Shown here one piece after another: positions 777-50,600 of a stretch of DNA of 64,000 nt (the stretch's first letter is position 1; every line of letters begins with the position of its first letter). This DNA is from Oleispira antarctica RB-8. Its GTDB lineage: Bacteria > Pseudomonadota > Gammaproteobacteria > Pseudomonadales > Oceanobacteraceae. A program made the position numbers and the translations under genes. The DNA is taken from contig FO203512.1 of assembly GCA_000967895.1 (NCBI GenBank), positions 879,582 through 943,581 of the forward strand, written 5' to 3'. The notes under the pieces were generated by a model. It saw only the letters and a program-made list of their open reading frames with translations. It did no database searches and was not told the origin of the DNA.

Positions 777-3413
777 CTATGGGCAGTGCCCTAATTGACC
801 GTAGAAGTTAAGTTCTCCGTTAATCGAGCCACCACTTGGGCCAAAGACATTTTCTACTTCAAAGAATAACGTATGGTCTTCGTTTGCTCCAGTGGCTGGA
901 ATACTTTGGTAACCACTCACACTGGTCCCCCAAGAAGCCATGGTCGATTGATTATGAACAGTGCGTTGAACAAGTGTATTAGACGCGATGCTGCTATCGT
1001 CCAAATAGACGTGGCTATAGTTATCAGACTTCATTTCATCAACGGTAACTTCACCACCACCACAAGAGCAAAAATCAACTTTTAAGGTATGTGTTGTATT
1101 GTTAGCAGATCCGAAGTCGAACCAGTTCATGGCTCCATCCCAAATAACATTGGCCCAAGCAGGGTTGGGTGGGTAGGTAGAAAATACGTTGTTTTCTACG
1201 GGGGCGGTACCTGTTGCCGTATTTATCCAAGTCGTAGCGGGACGTAAATCAACAGTGACTTTTTTATCACAGTCTTTATCAAATACAACACAGTCATCCC
1301 ATACTAATGGATTTGTTGGATCACAATCCTCATCGTTAGGGTAGCCATCACCATCTAGGTCATCGGGTGTTGAGTTTGGATTGAATGGATCACTGCCGAG
1401 TTCTATTTCTTCGTCATCGCAGAAACCATCTCCATCAGTATCGATACAGCCATTGTCTTCTTTAGTACACAGTTGTAATAAAGTAACGTCAACTTCTGTT
1501 TGCCAGAGTGCTAATACATCTAAATTAGCAATTCCAGAGGTTAGAGTATTCAGTAATGTTCCTGAACCAACGGCGTGATTTTGATTAATAATATAGGCAG
1601 TGCCTGCGTTTGCTGTTGGGTATTCTTGTACACCTGAAGAGGCTGTTAAAAACCCACCAATATTGGCATTGCTACTAGTACTAGAGTACTCACCAAACAG
1701 GATTTTATCATTAAGCGATGAGGCTGAAAGACTGCGAGCATTGACTAACAGTTGTGCTTTCACAATAGAATTATTAGAGAGAGGCAAGCTATCAGCGAAG
1801 GCAGCGGACTTCTCAATACTTTGGTCATAACTAATTAAATTATTAAGACTAATTGAATTGGATGGCGTTGTTACATCAATCGGTGCTGCAAAATCATCAG
1901 GCTGACCACCCGTCACTTGGCTATATTGAGTACCAGATGGACAAGAAAAATCTTTAGTGACTTGGGCAATCACTTCTTTTATTGGGGTTCCTGTAGGTTT
2001 TGGTTTATCACGACAAGAGGCAACTGCAATAAAATCAACATTCGTCGTTATACCCATCACTACATCGATGTCTGTTTGACCAGACTGCAAACGATCCAAT
2101 AAGGATTCATTTGCGGCATTAGTCATATTGTTTAACGGACTAAAATAGATGTCACCACTGTTTTGCCAAGTATTTCTAAGGTCATGCACTTGGCCACTAA
2201 TATTAGTATTTAAAACACCACTACCAATACTAAAATAATCTGTGTAAGAAGGACCAGCAGCAAGCGTTACTCCTTTTTCTTTAAGCCCTATAATAAATAG
2301 CCCAGAGGTAGCATCGCTTGGCAGCCCTGTGAGAGTTTCTGCAAATATATTAGGTGTCTTGGCGGTTGCGTCATAATCGTATGGATGTGTATATCCAGCA
2401 TAAGCGTTAATTAAGCCCGAGAGATTGGCACTGGGATTCGTTAGTTCAGTATTTGTATTTGAAAAGTTATCGACCATGCCATAAAGGTGAATATCTTGCT
2501 GTTGATTATCTTCACAGCGAAGTTGGGAGATTATTTTATCCAGCGCAGAGGGTCTGTCTTCTTTCTCTCGAAGCTTAAAAGCAATTTGTACGGCTTGATG
2601 GCTCGATATTGATAGTAATAAATCTTGATCTTGATTTGGATGGTCAACACAAGGATGAAAGAGGTCTAAGTAACAAGGTAAGGCAATCGGTAATTCAGCT
2701 TCATCAGTTTCAACAGTACTACCAATAATACGTGATAATGATTTAATCGGAATCAGTCCCGATAAATCTGGACTTTGTTGATGCTTAACCGTCAAATCAA
2801 CCAATGCTTCTGCCATGGCTTTTATATCAGCGTCATAAGCCGCTTTTAGTTCTAGCCCCTGATTCCCTAATAGCTCAAGGTTGTGATTTATTGTGGCCAG
2901 CAGTGCTTCATTTTGTTGCTCTGTACCTGTCAGATTAAATTCTTTGGCGAGTACTTCTTTAGCTTCTTGATAGCTTTTCGGTGCTACCATTTTACACGGT
3001 GCGCACCAGTCAGCGCCCGCTTGCTGAGCATAAAGGTATAAACCAAAAGCCAAAGCATTTGTTGCAGAAATATCTTTTTCTTCAGCCGGTAGTACTAAGT
3101 AACGGAAGCCTTCAAAATTAGAGAATTCAGTAACCGATATTTCTCCAGCAGAAGATAAGCGAGCAATAGTTTTAGCGTTGCCCTTATTATCATTATCAGT
3201 GGGTTTAAATTCTTTTAAAGACGTAGGGGTATCATCACAGAGATAGTCATCATTAGTATCTGAACAGACCTCCATCTTAAACTCGGCGGATATTCCCGAT
3301 TGGCTTAATTCTTTTTTTGAATCGGGGGACTCAGATGAGCTGGTTGGGTCGCACCCACTAAGTATGGTGCAACAAACTATTGCGCTCATGGTTAAATAGG
3401 TAGAGTGTTTCAT
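777..3413 (-). CDS. Large lipoprotein with calcium-binding thrombospondin-type repeats, unknown function
   Basis: The product is 878 aa. It begins with a lipoprotein signal whose lipobox LSGC puts the lipidated Cys at residue 21. A short Asp-rich CSDTNDDYLCDD segment lies near residue 50. A long region (about 110-640) contains two related stretches, both with NxNI and phrases on yearly or index-like loops, that I could not assign to a family. Residues about 650-710 carry classic D-x-D-x-D-G thrombospondin type 3 / dockerin-like calcium repeats (DTDGDGFCDDEE, DLDGDGYPNDEDCDP). The C-terminal 150 residues are beta-rich with paired cysteines. A thioredoxin-like WCAPC stretch is at residues 136-140, in no obvious thioredoxin fold. 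It is predicted to be surface-exposed or periplasmic. The divergent histidine kinase gene upstream may regulate it. Confidence 0.6.
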   Translation of the reverse strand: MKHSTYLTMSAIVCCTILSGCDPTSSSESPDSKKELSQSGISAEFKMEVCSDTNDDYLCDDTPTSLKEFKPTDNDNKGNAKTIARLSSAGEISVTEFSNFEGFRYLVLPAEEKDISATNALAFGLYLYAQQAGADWCAPCKMVAPKSYQEAKEVLAKEFNLTGTEQQNEALLATINHNLELLGNQGLELKAAYDADIKAMAEALVDLTVKHQQSPDLSGLIPIKSLSRIIGSTVETDEAELPIALPCYLDLFHPCVDHPNQDQDLLLSISSHQAVQIAFKLREKEDRPSALDKIISQLRCEDNQQQDIHLYGMVDNFSNTNTELTNPSANLSGLINAYAGYTHPYDYDATAKTPNIFAETLTGLPSDATSGLFIIGLKEKGVTLAAGPSYTDYFSIGSGVLNTNISGQVHDLRNTWQNSGDIYFSPLNNMTNAANESLLDRLQSGQTDIDVVMGITTNVDFIAVASCRDKPKPTGTPIKEVIAQVTKDFSCPSGTQYSQVTGGQPDDFAAPIDVTTPSNSISLNNLISYDQSIEKSAAFADSLPLSNNSIVKAQLLVNARSLSASSLNDKILFGEYSSTSSNANIGGFLTASSGVQEYPTANAGTAYIINQNHAVGSGTLLNTLTSGIANLDVLALWQTEVDVTLLQLCTKEDNGCIDTDGDGFCDDEEIELGSDPFNPNSTPDDLDGDGYPNDEDCDPTNPLVWDDCVVFDKDCDKKVTVDLRPATTWINTATGTAPVENNVFSTYPPNPAWANVIWDGAMNWFDFGSANNTTHTLKVDFCSCGGGEVTVDEMKSDNYSHVYLDDSSIASNTLVQRTVHNQSTMASWGTSVSGYQSIPATGANEDHTLFFEVENVFGPSGGSINGELNFYGQLGHCP

Positions 3414-3700: not shown

Positions 3701-5572
3701 ATGTTAAATATGATCAAATCTATAGTTTTTCTATTCTTCATATCTATTGTGATACTTGTTATCAGTCCAACGGCACTATTACATGCCGAATATTCAGAAG
3801 AATTATTCCCGCAGACACTGAAAAAATGGAAGTTTGTAGCAGATAAGGGTATGCGTGATTATTCGGTATTAAATATTGATGCCGCTCTTTGGCAGCCGAT
3901 TAACGTTGGTGAGCTATTACCGCAAAAATATAATGCTAGCGTTTATGGCTGGTACAAAACAGAATTTTTAGTTGAGGCGAGCACTGTTGAAAGGCCTGCA
4001 ATTTTTATCGAGTCAATACGGGGTTCAGACGAAGTCTGGTTAAATGATCAATTAATAGGACAAAAAGGTAAGCTACATTCCCCTTGGGAATTATTAACAA
4101 CCCAGCCCCAAAGCTTGCCGCGTCTTTATCTTATAAAAAAAGAATGGCTTAAACCTGATGAAAATACGTTAATTATAAAAATTAATACCGGTATTGGACA
4201 CTCTTGGGGTGCCATGTTTCCTGGAGGTACAGGTATAACAGGAAAGGTTGTTTATGGGGATAAAGACGATTTAACCCCTTTGTATTATGAAAAAACGAAT
4301 CGTATTATCGCTCTTGATATGATGTTTATAATTCTTGGTTTGGTGGATGTTTTTATAATTCTTATATTATTAAAAAAGACCATTCGACCCTTTCCAGAAT
4401 TCAAATGGTTATTGCTAGGAAGTTGTTTGATGATGCTCGGTGCTGCAGGGCACGATATCTTCTTTGTCTATGAACTCAGTATTATTCCGGGGGGATTATC
4501 TTTATTCATAAGTTTATTATTTGTTCCTTATGTCAACGGACTGTACTTTTGGTCACAAAATAAAGATGTCTCGGTCACCATTGTTAGTATTATTAGCGTT
4601 GTTTTTTTAATCATTACTTTTACTCTATTAATTCCTGGTGTGATCTTATCGTTAAAAGACATCCTATGGCAGGTATGGGCATCTTTTGCTGCTTTATTTT
4701 TTTCCTATTCTTTATACAGTGCAATTGTAAGGGTTAGGTTAAATAAAATAGGCAGTATCTCTCAGTTAATAGGCGTTGTGATTTACATTTTCTCTATAAG
4801 GAGCCAATGGATACCGTTTGAATCTTACGATCATAGAAATATTCAAATAGGCAGCCTGTTTTTTCGTTATGCAATTTTGATCGCTTATTTTCAGCAGATA
4901 TTTTCTATGCGGCTTTCATATAAAGTATTATCGCAGAAAATGCTGTCTATCTCTGAAATGACACGGCAAGAGGTCGCTCGTGAATTACACGATAATATCG
5001 GACAGTATTTGGCTTCAGCAAAACTACAATTAGGTTTAGTGAAAAAGACACAAGATCCTAAGCACTTTCAGCTACTTAATAATGAGCTAGACGATGCTTT
5101 AGTTGGCATGCGTAGAACTATTGCAGGATTGCATTACTTTCCACTGGAAAACGATGGTTTAAGAAAAACATTGTTAAATTATTGTTTATCTCTAGAAAGT
5201 AAAAATAACATACAGGTCAATATCGATATGAATGCTGATAATCGATTTAATCATCCTGTTCACAGTAAGCAAGAGCTAAACTTTCATCATAATGTGTTTA
5301 GAGTTATACAAGAGCTGGCTCAAAACTCAATACAGCATGGACATGCGACAGAGCTGAGTATTTATTTTAAGTGTGATAAATATTATATAATGATCGTTGT
5401 GCAGGATAATGGCTGTGGGTTTGATCATGAAAAAAACTTAGCAACCTCTGATACTGGAGGCTTCGGGTTTATAAGTGTAAAAGAAAGAATTGCAATACTC
5501 GATGGTTATCTCAATATTGTCAGTTCGGTTGGGCAGGGGACTAAAGCAGACATTCGAATTCCTTTTTATTAA
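3701..5572 (+). CDS. Membrane sensor histidine kinase (NarL/DegS-type HisKA_3)
   Basis: This 623-aa protein is anchored in the inner membrane. It has an N-terminal signal/TM segment (residues 5-28) and a periplasmic jelly-roll-like domain (about 30-195) with sugar-binding-like patterns (ASVYGWYKTEF, GSDEVWLNDQLIG). About seven hydrophobic helices follow (200-400), an arrangement resembling 7TMR-DISM sensors. The cytoplasmic part carries a HisKA_3 phosphoacceptor motif VARELHDNIGQYL with its His near residue 430. The ATPase domain has an N-box (ELAQNSIQHG) and G-boxes (DNGCGFD, GGFGFISVKERI). Kinases of this family pair with LuxR-type response regulators, and one is encoded convergently right downstream (5620-6234). 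The start ATG at 3701 is followed by another in-frame ATG at 3710. The ligand is not identifiable; the jelly-roll domain hints at a carbohydrate-like signal. Confidence 0.85.
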   Translation: MLNMIKSIVFLFFISIVILVISPTALLHAEYSEELFPQTLKKWKFVADKGMRDYSVLNIDAALWQPINVGELLPQKYNASVYGWYKTEFLVEASTVERPAIFIESIRGSDEVWLNDQLIGQKGKLHSPWELLTTQPQSLPRLYLIKKEWLKPDENTLIIKINTGIGHSWGAMFPGGTGITGKVVYGDKDDLTPLYYEKTNRIIALDMMFIILGLVDVFIILILLKKTIRPFPEFKWLLLGSCLMMLGAAGHDIFFVYELSIIPGGLSLFISLLFVPYVNGLYFWSQNKDVSVTIVSIISVVFLIITFTLLIPGVILSLKDILWQVWASFAALFFSYSLYSAIVRVRLNKIGSISQLIGVVIYIFSIRSQWIPFESYDHRNIQIGSLFFRYAILIAYFQQIFSMRLSYKVLSQKMLSISEMTRQEVARELHDNIGQYLASAKLQLGLVKKTQDPKHFQLLNNELDDALVGMRRTIAGLHYFPLENDGLRKTLLNYCLSLESKNNIQVNIDMNADNRFNHPVHSKQELNFHHNVFRVIQELAQNSIQHGHATELSIYFKCDKYYIMIVVQDNGCGFDHEKNLATSDTGGFGFISVKERIAILDGYLNIVSSVGQGTKADIRIPFY

Positions 5573-41554: not shown

Positions 41555-42748
41555 CTAAAAACTAGGCAATATATCAACCGCATCACGCTGGCTGGCTTCC
41601 CGTGTGTTGTAATATCTCATCGTTGTTTGAATGCTGGCATGATCGGCTAGTTGCTGCACTTTTTGTGGTGATTCGCCGGCATTCAAAAGCCACGTAATTA
41701 ATGCCGCTCTCATTCCCCAATGAAACGGTTTTACGCCACTGGGCAAGCCAGCAGCATTGCATGATTTAGTCATTGATCTAGAAATTGCGCTGGTATCGGC
41801 GTACCACGGTTGGCCGTTACCATTGTCTAAATAGTATTTCTCTTTTGGCCCGCGTGTGGCCAAGTCTTGTTCTAAAAACTCATAAAACGATTTATTGATT
41901 GGTTTGTTCGGCCACTTGTAACCTTTGTTTTTCCAGTTCAATTCAGGCACGTCACGAATCTTAATAATTCGCGCATTCATATCGATGTTTTTTAGCTCTT
42001 GAGAAGCTATCGCGCCTTTTCTCATTAGGCAAGACGTGGCCATATTGAACGCACGCAAAAGGTTTACAGTGTTAACCTTTTTCCGTGGTGTGTCGGCCTG
42101 TTCAATTTGAATCAATAAATGGGCTTTTAGCTGTTCAAGATGCTGAATGCTGAAAACTTCCATTTCTTTGGTCGGAGCCTTGGCTTTTTTCAAACGAACC
42201 ACTTTGTCTAGATATTCGTTATCGTATGCCCAGCGTAAATAAATGTTCAATTGGCGCATGTGCATGTTTTGAGTTGATGCGCTGATTAAATGAGCAGGGT
42301 TTTTAATCGAATGCAATTCGGTAAGGGATTTGTAAAACGTAATATTGTGATCACGGGAAAAATCTTTTAACAGATGATTACCCACCTCATTCAAATAAAT
42401 GCCAATAGTCTGTTTATACAAATTCAGCGTTTTGGTTGAAACCATTATTTCTAAATGAGAAAACCAAACCTTGGCCGCGTCATTCACCGTAATATTTTTA
42501 CGTTCGTGATCAGATCGCGCTTTGCTCTCATTCTTAACGAACTGTTTTTCTCTGATCTCTTTCTCTTTTAGCGAGTACTTAGAAAACGCCAACGTCATAG
42601 CGGCATCACTTCCCATACTTTCACAATCAGCAGCGCTTACTAAGCGGCGGCGCAATCCGCGCTTGTGTGCAATAAAACCAACTTCGGGATCGTGTGGAAA
42701 TTCACCGCATAAGTTTCCGTGACTATCATGAAATATTCTTTGTCTCAT
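41555..42748 (-). CDS. int: Tyrosine-recombinase integrase
   Basis: The product is 397 aa. The SAM-like N-terminal core-binding domain (about 80-180) precedes the catalytic domain. Catalytic residues are Arg in SCLMRKGAIASQEL, HxxR in HWGMRAALITWLL, His in LADHASIQTT, and the nucleophile Tyr in MRYYNTRE. It is the closest recombinase to the left attachment site and drives integration and excision at tRNA-Met. Only one base separates it from the stop of the membrane protein upstream, so they are cotranscribed. Confidence 0.93.
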   Translation of the reverse strand: MRQRIFHDSHGNLCGEFPHDPEVGFIAHKRGLRRRLVSAADCESMGSDAAMTLAFSKYSLKEKEIREKQFVKNESKARSDHERKNITVNDAAKVWFSHLEIMVSTKTLNLYKQTIGIYLNEVGNHLLKDFSRDHNITFYKSLTELHSIKNPAHLISASTQNMHMRQLNIYLRWAYDNEYLDKVVRLKKAKAPTKEMEVFSIQHLEQLKAHLLIQIEQADTPRKKVNTVNLLRAFNMATSCLMRKGAIASQELKNIDMNARIIKIRDVPELNWKNKGYKWPNKPINKSFYEFLEQDLATRGPKEKYYLDNGNGQPWYADTSAISRSMTKSCNAAGLPSGVKPFHWGMRAALITWLLNAGESPQKVQQLADHASIQTTMRYYNTREASQRDAVDILPSF

Positions 42749-43266: not shown

Positions 43267-43614
43267 TTAATTATTTTTATCTTCGTTTAAAACCTGAAAG
43301 GCTTTCATTTTTGTTTGTAGGGACGCAGAACGAAACAAGTTGATCATTTCGATTTCATCATCATTAAATTCAGGCGCGGGTGACTGAGTTATTTCTGGAT
43401 CGCCTTTCATCATTGGGCCCTCACCGTTTAGTAACCAAAGTGGGTTTACTCCGGTTGCTTCGGCTATGTCAATAATGTTTTTACCTGTTGTTTCGCCTTT
43501 GGATTTTAAATGGTGAATTTGGGATGAGGAGATGTTTGTCTTCTCTGAGATTTGCTTTGCTCCAAAGCGCTCCACAATTAGTTTTATTCTTGAGTTGAAT
43601 TGAATAGCTTCCAT
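43267..43614 (-). CDS. CI-like prophage repressor, XRE/helix-turn-helix
   Basis: The product is 115 aa. The HTH (about 12-60) is AKQISEKTNISSSQIHHLKSKGETTGKNIIDIAEATGVNPLWLLNGEGPM, where the last phrase is typical of P2-like CI repressors. The C-terminal part is acidic and short, so there is no LexA-like cleavage domain; induction would then not rely on RecA cleavage. It faces the early lytic operon across a palindromic operator region (43654-43789). Confidence 0.88.
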   Translation of the reverse strand: MEAIQFNSRIKLIVERFGAKQISEKTNISSSQIHHLKSKGETTGKNIIDIAEATGVNPLWLLNGEGPMMKGDPEITQSPAPEFNDDEIEMINLFRSASLQTKMKAFQVLNEDKNN

Positions 43615-45693: not shown

Positions 45694-46182
45694 ATGGGTT
45701 ATATCTCTGTTGTTTGTACCAATCCTGATTGTGCATTAGAAACCACTCGCTTAGAAGATACCGAATGGTGCCCAAAATGCGGTGATTATACTCAGCCAGT
45801 CGCGGGTTTTAATAGCCAGGCAACCCCCGTTGCACCAATGGTCAATAATAATATATCTCCTGAGTTGCTGCGTTCAATTGCTAACTCAAAACCGATTGAG
45901 TTTGACGGCCATGATTTGACGTTCATCTATTCATTATTAGATAAAAAGCAAAGCGAGTATTTACAGGGCGTAATTAAGTTAGAGACTACTAATGAGAACG
46001 CCAGAAGTACGAAAGAATATTTTGATCTTTGTCAGGGGTTTGAGCATGCAATGAAGATTATGCAGTTGATTAATGAAGAATTTAAAAAGCAACGCGCAAA
46101 ATCAGAAATTCACCGCCGCATGACGGGATTTTATTCAACGCCTGAAAATATTAAAAAATCTAACTTGGTTGGTGTTGCGTAA
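45694..46182 (+). CDS. Zinc-ribbon early phage protein
   Basis: The product is 162 aa from ATG 45694. The N-terminal four-Cys ribbon is TNPDCALETTRLEDTEWCPKCGDYTQP. The rest is helical (LLDKKQSEYLQGVIKLETTNENARSTKEYFDLCQGFEHAMKIMQLINEEFKKQRA). It shares its last base with the gene A start, so it is translationally coupled to it. A DNA- or protein-binding accessory of replication is possible. Confidence 0.6.
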   Translation: MGYISVVCTNPDCALETTRLEDTEWCPKCGDYTQPVAGFNSQATPVAPMVNNNISPELLRSIANSKPIEFDGHDLTFIYSLLDKKQSEYLQGVIKLETTNENARSTKEYFDLCQGFEHAMKIMQLINEEFKKQRAKSEIHRRMTGFYSTPENIKKSNLVGVA

Positions 46183-48179
46183 TGGCTGTTATAGAAAATC
46201 TTGCTGAATACGCATTAGTCAGCGCACCAAAAGCAAAATATCCTGATTTCTGGCTGGGTGAGGCTAAGAAGCTTGCTAATCGTTGTAATAAATATTATTC
46301 AACAGCGCTTGTGAATGAATGGCAGCGTGTTGCTAAAAATAAAAGTCTTAAGGATGCCAATATTCGTTTAAAGAAACTTCAAGAAAGTTTTAAGTTTGGT
46401 GACTTCGTAATTACTGATACTCAAGACGAAGCCGTTTCTGATTATGCCAATACGCTTTCAATTAAGTGCATTACCATTTTAGCTAATTACATGCAATTTG
46501 GTGATGAAGAAAAAGCCGTTCAGCACATTCAAAACGTATGTGATCGCCATGAGTTATCAGAAGATTTAGAAACCGTGGTGAAGCGCGGTGAATTTCGCGG
46601 CTTTGCATTACGCTTGCAAGACGCTAAATGGTGGCGCGGTAAAATCAAACGTTTTTCGGCCCGCCGTATCGAAAAGATTTCACGCGAACTGGGTTTTATT
46701 AATAAAGCCCGTTCAATGTATTGTTCAGAAGTTGGCAAACGTGAGCACAAGCGTTCAAAGCAATTAGGTTTTGAACACATGGAAAACGTGGTTTTAGAAA
46801 ACAACGTTGGTGATCAATATACCCTTGCTGATCTTGCAGAATTGAGTAATTCAAACCCTGCTATTCGTAGAGCTGAATTGATGGTGAGAATCGCAGGCTT
46901 TGAGCAGTACGCAAAAGAACGCCAATTTAATGCTTGGTTTTTCACAATTACTTGTCCATCAAAATACCACTCTCATCACTTGAGCGGTCATAGAAATAAA
47001 AAGTTTCAGGGCTCTGGTCAAAAAGAAGCACAAGATTATCTTTGCAAACTTTGGGCAAAATTTCGTTCTAAAGCTAAGCGCATTACAAAAGACAAAGACG
47101 AAGAGTGGGAGTTTTTCGGCTTTCGTGTTGCAGAGCCTCATCATGATGCTACACCGCATTGGCATCTTCTTTTATTTATAAACCCGCGTCATGAAAGTGA
47201 AGTGCGTTCTTTTTTGCGTAAATACGCAATGGAAGAAGACGGCAATGAGCGCGGCGCTTATAAAGCACGTTTTGATGAAACCAAAATCAAGCAGGGTTTG
47301 AACGAAGCCACAGGCAAGGAATATTCTGCGGCGGGTTATATCGCTAAATATGTTGCTAAAAACATTGATGGTGAGCATGTCGATGTTGATACCTATGGCG
47401 AGGATGCCAGGGCAAGCGCGCAAAGTATTGTCGGTTGGTCGTCACGTAATGGCTTGCGTCAATTTCAGCAAGTAGGCGGGCCAAAGGTTAGCCAATGGCG
47501 CGAGCTTAGAAGACTAGCGAATATTTCAGAAGAAGACGAAGCGGAAATGAGCCCTCTTTTAAAATCGGCCATCGATAAGTTAGAAAGCTTTGAACATGCA
47601 GCAGATGCTTGGTGCTGGTATTGCCGTTTTTCTGATCAACATGGTTTGTCACTTTATAAAATCGCTAAAACGGTTGATGACATTATTGAATCAGTTGATA
47701 CCGAAACGGGCGAAGTGTTCCCACTAACCCTGCAAAAACCAAGTGTGAATTATTACGGCGAATTTATAGATCAAATAAAAGGCATTGATTTAAGCCTTAA
47801 CTTTTTGCCCGAAGGTTTTCCGTATCCGGTTGAAGATAATCAGTCTAACCACATTCGTCAGAAAACCCGCTTCTACGATTGGACCATTATTAACGCCACG
47901 AAAGCCGAAGCGGCAGAAGTGCGCGCAACTAACGTTGCTAAGAAGCTGGCAATGAATGAAGCAAAGCTTGGAGAAGCGGTTGCGGTTGCTGATGACTTGC
48001 TAACGGCTTTGGTGGTTGCTGCTCCTGAATCTTTTGATCTTGATCTTGAGTCTCTTGATTTTAAAGCGCTTTGCGCGCCTTGGACTGGTGTCAATAACTG
48101 TACTGGGTCGGTTGAAGGCTTCGGACAGAAACCCGAAGCCCAGCAACAACAAACTCTTTTTGATTTGAATAGGCCGTAA
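46182..48179 (+). CDS. Replication gene A, rolling-circle initiation endonuclease
   Basis: The product is 665 aa, close to P2 gpA in length. It contains the HUH motif PHWHLLLFIN (His near residues 325 and 327) and the paired-Tyr region YSAAGYIAKYVAKN (about residues 381-393). It also has the upstream conserved WFFTITCPSKYHS. The enzyme nicks one strand at the origin and stays covalently attached to initiate rolling-circle replication. The origin itself, usually inside gene A, was not identified. It is preceded by the zinc-ribbon gene and followed by CsrA and methyltransferase genes. Confidence 0.93.
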   Translation: MAVIENLAEYALVSAPKAKYPDFWLGEAKKLANRCNKYYSTALVNEWQRVAKNKSLKDANIRLKKLQESFKFGDFVITDTQDEAVSDYANTLSIKCITILANYMQFGDEEKAVQHIQNVCDRHELSEDLETVVKRGEFRGFALRLQDAKWWRGKIKRFSARRIEKISRELGFINKARSMYCSEVGKREHKRSKQLGFEHMENVVLENNVGDQYTLADLAELSNSNPAIRRAELMVRIAGFEQYAKERQFNAWFFTITCPSKYHSHHLSGHRNKKFQGSGQKEAQDYLCKLWAKFRSKAKRITKDKDEEWEFFGFRVAEPHHDATPHWHLLLFINPRHESEVRSFLRKYAMEEDGNERGAYKARFDETKIKQGLNEATGKEYSAAGYIAKYVAKNIDGEHVDVDTYGEDARASAQSIVGWSSRNGLRQFQQVGGPKVSQWRELRRLANISEEDEAEMSPLLKSAIDKLESFEHAADAWCWYCRFSDQHGLSLYKIAKTVDDIIESVDTETGEVFPLTLQKPSVNYYGEFIDQIKGIDLSLNFLPEGFPYPVEDNQSNHIRQKTRFYDWTIINATKAEAAEVRATNVAKKLAMNEAKLGEAVAVADDLLTALVVAAPESFDLDLESLDFKALCAPWTGVNNCTGSVEGFGQKPEAQQQQTLFDLNRP

Positions 48180-48184
48180 AAATA

Positions 48185-48433
48185 ATGAAAAACACGCAAC
48201 TGAATATTCCTATTAGACGCTTAGATGCAATCGAGATTGCCGCATTAGAGCCAATGGTGAAAGCCGCGTACCTAAAACGATTAAAAATCCAGCGCCCAAA
48301 TTTATTTGAAGGGGTTTTGCGCCTGGTCACAATTGAAGAAACTCGTTTATTGGTTAATAAGGCGAAAGCCAGCGGCCAAGAAGACTTTGTAATTAGATCT
48401 ATAAACAACGCAATGGAGAAAGCAGAATGTTAA
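48185..48433 (+). CDS. Small phage protein before CsrA homologue
   Basis: The product is 82 aa. It is basic and helical ([49 protein letters not shown]). It overlaps the start of the CsrA homologue by 7 bp, indicating coupling. No motif recognised; DNA or RNA binding is possible from charge. Confidence 0.55.
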
Positions 48434-48771
48434 TTTTAACTCGTAGAGTCGGTGAAGCCTTGGTGATCGGTGATGATTTAAGAATAGTGGTCGATTCGAT
48501 AGGTTTAGGTGACGTCAGATTTACAGTAATTGATATTTCAAAGATTGGTAATGGTGGCGAATGGGCTGCTTATTCTGATTTTGGTGAGTGCTATATATTA
48601 AACAAAGAACTTAAAATTAATTTTCTTAGCGTGAAAGGCAGTCAAGTGAAGATCGGCATTGATGCACCTAAATCAATTTCAGTTCACCGTGAAGAAATTT
48701 ATAAAAAGATTCAGGCCGAAAAACCAGAACGAATCACGCTTTCAAAGCGTGGCTTGGAAATGATGGGTTAA
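48427..48771 (+). CDS. CsrA/RsmA-family RNA-binding protein with internal insertion
   Basis: The product is 114 aa, against about 60 for canonical CsrA. Residues 1-20 ([20 protein letters not shown]) match CsrA strands 1-2, with L4, R6 and R7 present. Residues about 60-98 (start [20 protein letters not shown], then [20 protein letters not shown]) match strands 3-5 and the helix, with the RNA-binding Arg kept in VHREE. Between them lies an extra segment of about 40 residues whose first half, [16 protein letters not shown], resembles a second copy of strands 3-4. CsrA dimers bind GGA motifs near ribosome binding sites. RsmN-type proteins also carry an insertion, but a shorter one. Location between gene A and the membrane protein gene indicates an early phage function. 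Confidence 0.88.
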
Positions 48772-48795: not shown

Positions 48796-49734
48796 ATGAC
48801 TACGTTCAAAATTAAAAATATGACTTTTTCGAAGCTGGGCTTGCTGATCGTAGCCGCTGGCCTATTTTCAGTATCGGTTTATAGCGAAGTTATGTTGTTC
48901 ACTTCGGTATTTCAAGCGAATGCTGAAAAGCTGTTGGCGGGTACGTTTGCTTTTTTCGTTGTATTGGCACAAATAGTTTTTGCAGATCAAGCCGCATTTT
49001 GGCGCAGTAGAAAAAACGATTTATTAGCGGGCCTGTGTGGGTTGGCTGTACTGGTCTTAATGACTGTATCGGTTGCGGGTTCTGTTTTCTTTTTTGAAAG
49101 TGGTTATAACGAAATGAAACAAAAACAAAACACCAGCGGCATGGGTTATCAGTTGGCCGTTGAATTGATCAACAGCAAGAAAAACACCATTGCAGGTTTG
49201 AAAGCGAATGCTGAAAAATCAGAGCAGGCGGGCAACGCTTGGGACGCTGGGCAAAAACGATTGAAAGCGGTTGAAGTAGAAAACGAACTGGCCGCGTTGA
49301 TCTTATCATTGCGTGATAACAAAGCCGAAGCCGTGGGCAGCGCTTCGGCCATGGTGGGCATTCTTGAATCCTATCGATTTATCGCATGGTTCATCTTTGC
49401 CGCTATTGCTGATTTTGTGCCCGTACTGGCCGTGGTGTTGTTGCGTCTTTGCCCTGTTAAAGAAAGCCCTGCCAAGGAAACAAAACAGGAAGCAAAACAA
49501 ACGAACAAAACAAAACAGCCAGCAAAACAAAACGAAAACAAAACAGTAAAAACGAATGCAATAGCAAAACAAAAATTAAGGCATGTGATCGAGATGCGTC
49601 AAGCCGTACCCAGTGTACGTGAAGCCAAAAAATTGGGTTTCAGCTATGCAGCATTCAAAGCAGAAATTGAAGCCTTGGTTGAAGATAGATTTTTAACAAA
49701 ACGCGAAAGCGGAAAAGGGTGGGAAGTAGCATGA
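48796..49734 (+). CDS. Four-helix membrane protein with Lys/Gln linker and C-terminal winged-helix-like segment
   Basis: The product is 312 aa from ATG 48796. Three N-terminal hydrophobic helices (residues about 10-105) are followed by a helical extracytoplasmic or coiled region (LKANAEKSEQAGNAWDAGQKRLKAVEVENELAAL). A fourth helix follows (YRFIAWFIFAAIADFVPVLAVVLL). A Lys/Gln/Thr-rich low-complexity linker, encoded by repeated AAACAAAACA-like DNA, leads to a short C-terminal segment (SVREAKKLGFSYAAFKAEIEALVEDRFL) that looks like a DNA-binding helix-turn-helix. It shares 4 bp with the methyltransferase start. A membrane-tethered DNA-binding protein would be an unusual phage component; function unknown. 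Confidence 0.7.
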   Translation: MTTFKIKNMTFSKLGLLIVAAGLFSVSVYSEVMLFTSVFQANAEKLLAGTFAFFVVLAQIVFADQAAFWRSRKNDLLAGLCGLAVLVLMTVSVAGSVFFFESGYNEMKQKQNTSGMGYQLAVELINSKKNTIAGLKANAEKSEQAGNAWDAGQKRLKAVEVENELAALILSLRDNKAEAVGSASAMVGILESYRFIAWFIFAAIADFVPVLAVVLLRLCPVKESPAKETKQEAKQTNKTKQPAKQNENKTVKTNAIAKQKLRHVIEMRQAVPSVREAKKLGFSYAAFKAEIEALVEDRFLTKRESGKGWEVA

Positions 49735-50600
49735 TCGATGTTAAAAGCTATTTTTGTGGTGCTGGTTTGATGGACGTTGGTTTGATACAAGCTGGCGTTA
49801 ATATCAAACAATCTTTTGAAATCGATAAGAACGCTGTAAAAACTTACAAAGCAAATATTGGTGATCATGTTAAGCATTGTGATATTTCACAAGAATTAGT
49901 ACTTACACAAGATGGCTGTGATGTGATGGTTTTTACATACCCTTGCACTAAATACAGTTCAATAGCTGATATTCATCAAACAAGAACGGGTGATGAATTG
50001 TTTCTTCATGCGTTGCGCCATGTTGCCATTGAGCGGCCAGAAGTGTATTCCATTGAAAATGTACCAGGTATGAAAGCGTTTCCAATAGTCATGGAAGCAA
50101 TGACGAAAATGCCTGATTACTATGTGCAAGTATTTTGCCCTATTCAATCTGAATTGTGGTTACCGCAAAGAAGAAACCGTTTGATTATTTTTGGTAGCAA
50201 AAAACGCTTTGCCATACGTCCACCTGAAAACACACGGGCTATTTCATTGGCTGAAATATTAGAAAAAGAACCTAATGTGACATTACCAAAAGCAATTGCC
50301 GCGCGTATGGGTGGAAAATATAGAGACTTGCCAATTATTAGTGATCCGGCCAAAGGTGATATTGCTCCAACGTGTGTTGCTCATTACGCAAAAGATAAAA
50401 GCACGCGCTTAGTTGTTGATAAGCGTTTCCCGTTAGGGGTTCGGCCTTATTCAGTTAGAGAGTTCGCCCGTCTTCAAGGCTTGCCGGATTCTTTTGTTTT
50501 TCCTGTTTCTGATAGTTCAGCATATAAACAAATTGGAAACGGTGTTTCTGTTCAGGTCGGTGAATGGCTTGGAAAAGAAATAAAAAGATATTTTCATTAA
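49731..50600 (+). CDS. DNA (cytosine-5)-methyltransferase
   Basis: The product is 289 aa from ATG 49731, with an ATGA overlap to the preceding gene. C5-methyltransferase motifs appear in order: I SYFCGAGLMDVGLIQAGVN, IV VFTYPCTKYSS with catalytic Cys (PC followed by T instead of the usual Q), VI YSIENVPGM, VIII PQRRNRLIIFG, IX VREFARLQGLPDSFVF, and X AYKQIGNGVSVQVGEWL. The target-recognition region is short, and no restriction gene is linked. In phages such solitary enzymes protect against host restriction or act in regulation. A hairpin (AAGCGGG/CCCGCTT) lies just after the stop. Confidence 0.92.
   Translation: MIDVKSYFCGAGLMDVGLIQAGVNIKQSFEIDKNAVKTYKANIGDHVKHCDISQELVLTQDGCDVMVFTYPCTKYSSIADIHQTRTGDELFLHALRHVAIERPEVYSIENVPGMKAFPIVMEAMTKMPDYYVQVFCPIQSELWLPQRRNRLIIFGSKKRFAIRPPENTRAISLAEILEKEPNVTLPKAIAARMGGKYRDLPIISDPAKGDIAPTCVAHYAKDKSTRLVVDKRFPLGVRPYSVREFARLQGLPDSFVFPVSDSSAYKQIGNGVSVQVGEWLGKEIKRYFH

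Follow-up and report, generated by a model that had tools for sequence, protein, structure and literature searches.

A prophage gene of Oleispira antarctica encodes a CsrA variant with two CsrA copies in one chain and a single predicted RNA pocket

The 64,000-nucleotide window considered here (Oleispira antarctica RB-8, contig FO203512.1, positions 879,582 to 943,581) contains a prophage gene, located at 48427-48771 on the plus strand, for a 114-residue CsrA-like protein that is best described as a single-chain CsrA pseudo-dimer. It consists of CsrA residues 1-36, an eight-residue linker and a whole second CsrA, an architecture that is well supported. It is likely that the protein is self-contained, with a single GGA-binding site, without the ability to bridge two sites and without need of a CsrA partner from the host. 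We infer its monomeric state, its binding of RNA and its role. Translation of the reading frame gives no internal stops, and the product matches the Pfam CsrA family (PF02599) in two stretches (E 9.3e-24, 83.6 bits against a curated cut-off of 27), the NCBIfam CsrA model TIGR00202 (96.8 bits) and PHROG 9500, 'CsrA-like regulator'. An earlier note on this DNA had described a CsrA protein that keeps L4, R6, R7 and VHREE and carries about 40 extra residues; this is confirmed, with 44 residues more than in CsrA ahead of the R44 equivalent.

Copy 1 (residues 1-36, nucleotides 48427-48534, plus strand) aligns without gaps to residues 1-36 of E. coli CsrA; it comprises strands 1-4 and lacks strand 5 and the helix. 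The linker (ISKIGNGG, residues 37-44, 48535-48558, plus strand) connects strand 4 with strand 1' of copy 2. The latter is a complete CsrA (residues 45-102, 48559-48732, plus strand) according to the alignment, an AlphaFold2 (AF2) model and structural superposition. From residue 45 onward the protein tracks CsrA from its first residue at an offset of 44, G53/E54 corresponding to G9/E10 and R88 to R44. A C-terminal tail (residues 103-114, 48733-48768, plus strand) contains a low-confidence helix at 104-111 in the AF2 model.

The internal repeat in this protein is weak and in register. Offset 44 gave the best self-alignment among the ungapped offsets tried, a result equalled by 5 of 10,000 shuffles, and residues 9-36 against 53-80 were equalled by 3 of 10,000. 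When the protein is cut into 44 and 70 residues, a division chosen by us, the first 44 cover positions 1-34 of the TIGR00202 profile and the last 70 cover positions 9-67, so that positions 9-34 are covered twice. The extra segment taken alone (residues 18-62) scored only 1.5 bits against a profile of ordinary CsrA, short of significance, with 129 of 2000 shuffles equally good; the same holds for residues 17-44 (180 of 2000), and segments 37-61 and 45-61 had no significant match to that profile. Because residues 18-62 do not match the CsrA profile by themselves, this single sequence should not be over-read: the CsrA homology of the extra segment is clear only together with its neighbouring strands or with relatives. 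In profile-profile comparisons with unforced register, residues 9-36 of copy 1 fall on CsrA 9-36 (probability 94) and residues 1-36 of copy 2 on CsrA 1-36 (probability 98). The short extra pieces alone keep the same register (17-36 and 1-17; E 7e-4 and 8e-4), with a probability of only 10.

The AF2 model (predicted local distance difference test, pLDDT, 77.9) has nine strands in the order b1-b4 and b1'-b5', followed by a helix. The strands of copy 1 lie at residues 2-7, 11-14, 18-25 and 30-36, those of copy 2 at 45-50, 54-57, 62-70, 73-79 and 86-88, and the helix at 89-98. A prediction made without any alignment recovered the first eight strands (pLDDT 54). Ahead of residue 89, neither prediction, with or without an alignment, shows a helix that is four residues long or longer. 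Superposition on CsrA, which the earlier note had proposed as a check, bears out the model: the solved chains 1vpz_A, 2bti_A and 5z38_H fit residues 43-101 with root-mean-square deviations of 1.3-1.5 Å over 55-57 residues. In the model, only copy 2 has the b1-b2-b3-b4-b5-alpha fold of CsrA. The one-and-a-half-copy fold suggested in the earlier note is thereby supported by structure prediction, and by profile comparison and relatives as well. Its further idea that the extra segment repeats strands 3-4 holds for the duplication and has to be revised for its extent, since strands 1-4 are duplicated and residues 45-61 are the degenerate strands 1-2 of a complete second copy.

The search for homologues, likewise proposed there, yielded 13 further two-copy proteins from phages, plasmids and genomes, making 14 distinct proteins with the present one (L060 and L061, one residue apart, are counted once). 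With a scan profile built from 101 ordinary CsrA cores, we examined 258 CsrA-matching frames, counting duplicate loci: 24 of them match 12 or more profile positions twice, and the remaining 234 do not. Four queries, three of which are two-copy proteins, had served to preselect these frames, and the loci had been chosen in part for their full-length resemblance to such proteins, so that 24 of 258 is not a natural frequency. The two-copy form is present in Pseudomonas phage vsMR (L013), on plasmids of Xanthomonas and Stenotrophomonas (four records were read), and in five of the 80 phage loci kept from 126 found (L172, L190, L230, L233 and L249, with four distinct proteins). The Stenotrophomonas protein is covered to at least 80% by 14 records, 13 from Xanthomonas and one from Stenotrophomonas. 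A five-member profile searched against 341 genomes of the host's order detected the form in at least four, the host's own included, the others being G713, G490 and G535. In the genus of G713 it occurs in three of 48 genomes (G713, G730 and G747), and the phage contig L151 encodes the same protein as G730. A full-length match is absent from the other 54 of 55 relatives of the host. At the level of the class, 13 of 369 genomes matched at E 1e-18, a threshold that would miss weaker two-copy forms; only the host's own match spans the profile, the 12 others being ordinary.

In two of the relatives the copies are plainly alike: those of G713 have an ungapped score of 70 with 14 of 36 positions identical, and those of phage contig L151 a score of 63 with 12 of 36 identical, in each case with none of 10,000 shuffles as good. 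Judged by sequence, these two proteins can be regarded as intermediates. Copy 2 starts at residue 38-45 in 12 of the 14 proteins, which have linkers of 1-8 residues, and linkers are longer in L230 and L233 (approximate offsets 70 and 67). In L230 and in L233/L249, copy 1 continues beyond strand 4, which is possibly a related but distinct arrangement. The ratio of nonsynonymous to synonymous substitution rates (dN/dS) is 0.085-0.31 in six pairs of relatives drawn from two sets of three sequences, with dS above 1 in some, and both copies are constrained, pointing to purifying selection on the relatives.

Some two-copy genes have further genes of interest beside them. On the Xanthomonas citri plasmid plB (L057), the two-copy gene (4001-4342) is followed about 100 bases on by an ordinary csrA (4446-4634). 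On the minus strand of contig C271 of G535 (L149), two CsrA-like genes (996-1364 and 3125-3343) lie about 2 kb apart, the second with a copy-2-like part only within its frame. In G713 (L147, 4810-6485, minus strand), a DUF4411 gene and an adjoining gene for a helix-turn-helix/IrrE peptidase neighbour the two-copy gene; these neighbours may form a toxin-antitoxin-type pair, and the region is prophage-like, with an integrase-like open reading frame.

T5, R6, R7, E45 and E46 have roles in the RNA pocket of CsrA. Each RNA surface of solved CsrA combines strand 1 of one monomer with strand 5 of the opposite one, and L4 and R44 are critical to it (PMC7652899). In the prophage protein, L4 T5 R6 R7 of copy 1 (codons 48436-48447, plus strand) represent the strand-1 half of a retained predicted pocket. 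The strand-5 half is R88 E89 E90 (48688-48696, plus strand), equivalent to CsrA R44 E45 E46 and belonging to VHREE at residues 86-90; A80 P81 (48664-48669, plus strand) are equivalent to A36 P37. Strand 1' of copy 2 has A48 Y49 S50 D51 in place of L4/T5/R6/R7. The same asymmetry runs through the relatives: L4 and R6 are present in copy 1 of 14 out of 14 proteins (98 of 101 in ordinary CsrA), and copy 2 has A36, P37, R44, E45 and E46 in all 14. Conversely, none of the 14 combines L4 with R6 in copy 2 (R6 alone occurs in four, L4 alone in one), and none has VxREE in copy 1. The mirror arrangement of kept residues was not found in the double-match scan, which should have revealed it. One full set of the pocket residues L4, R6 and R44 is therefore present, with L4 and R6 in copy 1 and R88 E89 E90 in copy 2; a second pocket with the same residues is not, given A48 Y49 S50 at the places of L4 T5 R6 and a copy 1 without VxREE. 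Since copy 1 keeps L4/R6 and copy 2 keeps R44-E45-E46, the retained residues make up both halves of a single pocket. The second pocket appears to have been lost.

The known topology of CsrA offers a route to such a protein. In solved CsrA the antiparallel sheets have the order b5A-b2B-b3B-b4B-b1A (PMC3791407), which should bring the end of strand 4 in one subunit next to where strand 1 of the other begins. Copy 1 would stand in for the second subunit, minus strand 5 and the helix, and the 1-8-residue link from strand 4 to strand 1' would be a hairpin that closes the dimer in one chain, as the published topology and the predicted strand order imply. One of the two composite pockets would be kept, with copy 1 contributing L4/R6 and copy 2 contributing A36-P37 and R44-E45-E46. 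The other would be dead, as strand 1' has no L4/R6 and copy 1 no VxREE. We infer that the protein binds single GGA sites, which could be ribosome-binding sites in phage or host mRNA or sites in the Csr/Rsm sponge RNAs of the host. The bridging of two sites would be lost and heterodimers with host CsrA would be unneeded. Full repression of glgC requires both pockets and bridging (Mercante 2009, as told in PMC7652899), though one known target is regulated through a single site (same review). Most likely the protein controls messages of the phage or the host through single sites while replication proceeds, or blocks host CsrA sites as a plug. We tentatively suggest that phages and plasmids evolved a monomeric, single-pocket CsrA that neither bridges sites nor forms heterodimers with host CsrA and is only weakly held by multi-site sponges (CsrB/RsmZ), which profit from two-pocket binding. 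If so, the regulator would be freed from host Csr control, holding or releasing GGA-marked phage and host messages during replication.

A different function, which we consider rather doubtful, is antagonism of host CsrA. The protein would form a heterodimer with it through copy 1 or copy 2, or would act as an inert plug on GGA sites, and host Csr activity would be lowered during phage replication. There is a precedent in the plasmid-encoded RsmQ, which forms dimers both with itself and with the Rsm proteins of its host (PMC9928087), and a single-pocket protein should be a poorer repressor because of the two-pocket requirement of glgC (Mercante 2009 via PMC7652899). However, the dimer interface would already be occupied within the chain, and a target regulated by a single site is on record (PMC7652899). 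It is also unlikely that the protein forms a swapped homodimer, in which each chain would pack its copy 1 against copy 2 of the other; two chains would then form two pseudo-dimers with a total of two pockets, and bridging would be possible again. In its favour, CsrA chains normally exchange strands 1 and 5 (PMC3791407), the absence of strand 5 would leave the edge of strand 2' open, and the linker is down to 1-2 residues in some relatives. On the other side, pairing within the chain would give a very high local concentration of both copies, the hairpin from strand 4 to strand 1' would fit even the shortest linkers, and, since copy 1 lacks VxREE in all 14 proteins, every pseudo-dimer would be left with one pocket. 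It is highly improbable that the protein is an ordinary CsrA homodimer in which an unrelated or RsmN-like segment has been inserted between strands 2 and 3, as the extra segment is predicted to form strands with no helix of four residues or more before residue 89, CsrA chains superpose on 43-101 with the supposed insert 45-61 included, and the relatives have two plain copies.

The gene calls, with their Pfam and PHROG matches, place the CsrA-like gene inside a prophage. An integrase gene (41555-42748) and a repressor-like gene (43267-43614) lie on the minus strand, and on the plus strand are a replication initiator of the Phage_GPA type (46182-48179; Pfam, PHROG), an open reading frame of 82 residues (48185-48433) with no Pfam or PHROG match at E 0.1, the CsrA-like gene and a C5 cytosine DNA methyltransferase gene (49731-50600; Pfam, PHROG), the last forming part of the prophage early operon. 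A gene for a 316-residue membrane-like protein lies between the latter two. The order given in the earlier note, between the replication gene and the methyltransferase, is correct, but the 82-residue frame and the membrane-like protein intervene. The 3' end of the 82-residue frame overlaps the start of the CsrA-like gene, and translational coupling of the two is possible. Further prophage genes encode an SSB-like protein, portal, terminase, scaffold, capsid and small terminase; this set of prophage genes is presumably P2-like. The host chromosome carries an ordinary csrA elsewhere.

Other csrA-like arrangements were observed along the way. A plasmid of Legionella geestiana (L059, 4001-4684) has three consecutive csrA-like open reading frames (ordinary, degenerate and short), and genome G048 has nine csrA-like matches, among them several that belong to a divergent KRRPGENLRIG type. 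In the host's family, genome G013 encodes a 133-residue protein (L051, 3885-4283) in which CsrA (Pfam 2e-24 at 1-52) is followed by a cold-shock domain (CSD, 9.5e-14 at 70-132), i.e. two RNA-binding folds in one chain; two loci of G039 (L052, 251-706; L053, 3882-4337) look alike on reading.

Descriptions of CsrA present it as a homodimer that can use its two pockets to bridge sites on a single RNA. A natural fused form that keeps exactly one pocket's residues would be a ready-made test of which Csr functions depend on bridging and which on single sites, and it suggests a route from a domain-swapped homodimer to one chain through a strand 4 to strand 1 hairpin. As further phages and plasmids encode relatives, mobile elements seem to maintain this altered CsrA for a purpose of their own. 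They may adjust translation through a CsrA that stays separate from that of the host.

Like the canonical CsrA/RsmA/RsmE homodimers, the protein has the Pfam CsrA domain, a copy 2 that superposes on three solved chains and the residues of one pocket; those are made of two chains, whereas here one chain is predicted to suffice, with a first copy lacking strand 5 and helix and a second pocket that seems lost. RsmN (RsmF) of Pseudomonas aeruginosa is also a longer CsrA-family protein with an altered chain path. It contains a 16-residue helical insert, located between strands 2 and 3 (PMC3791407), and no C-terminal helix, and it nonetheless forms dimers with two RNA sites. The RsmN comparison drawn in the earlier note fails in detail: in place of an inter-strand helix the model has strands at 18-25, 30-36, 45-50 and 54-57, with a C-terminal helix at 89-98. 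RsmQ, another CsrA homologue carried by a mobile element, plasmid pQBR103, affects translation in its host; it differs in forming homo- and heterodimers, and the available section of PMC9928087 mentions no internal duplication. Genes for csrA are known in phages (e.g. RsmM) and plasmids, 12 Xanthomonas plasmids included, and the longer subfamilies of mobile elements have extended C-termini, with no internal duplication mentioned in the passages of PMC7366521 at hand. Laboratory CsrA heterodimers, such as CsrA N55D/CsrA (PMC6529632, in part), are asymmetric too and serve to ask what each half does. They are two separate chains, whereas the prophage protein would be a natural asymmetric state in one chain. 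A single-pocket heterodimer was reportedly made in the laboratory by Mercante in 2009 (by way of PMC7652899). No natural single-chain, single-pocket CsrA is described among the matches listed in our literature searches. Phage and plasmid csrA genes and laboratory heterodimers are known already, and what appears to be new is the natural single-chain, single-pocket form. The protein is a CsrA variant that is neither canonical two-pocket CsrA nor RsmN.
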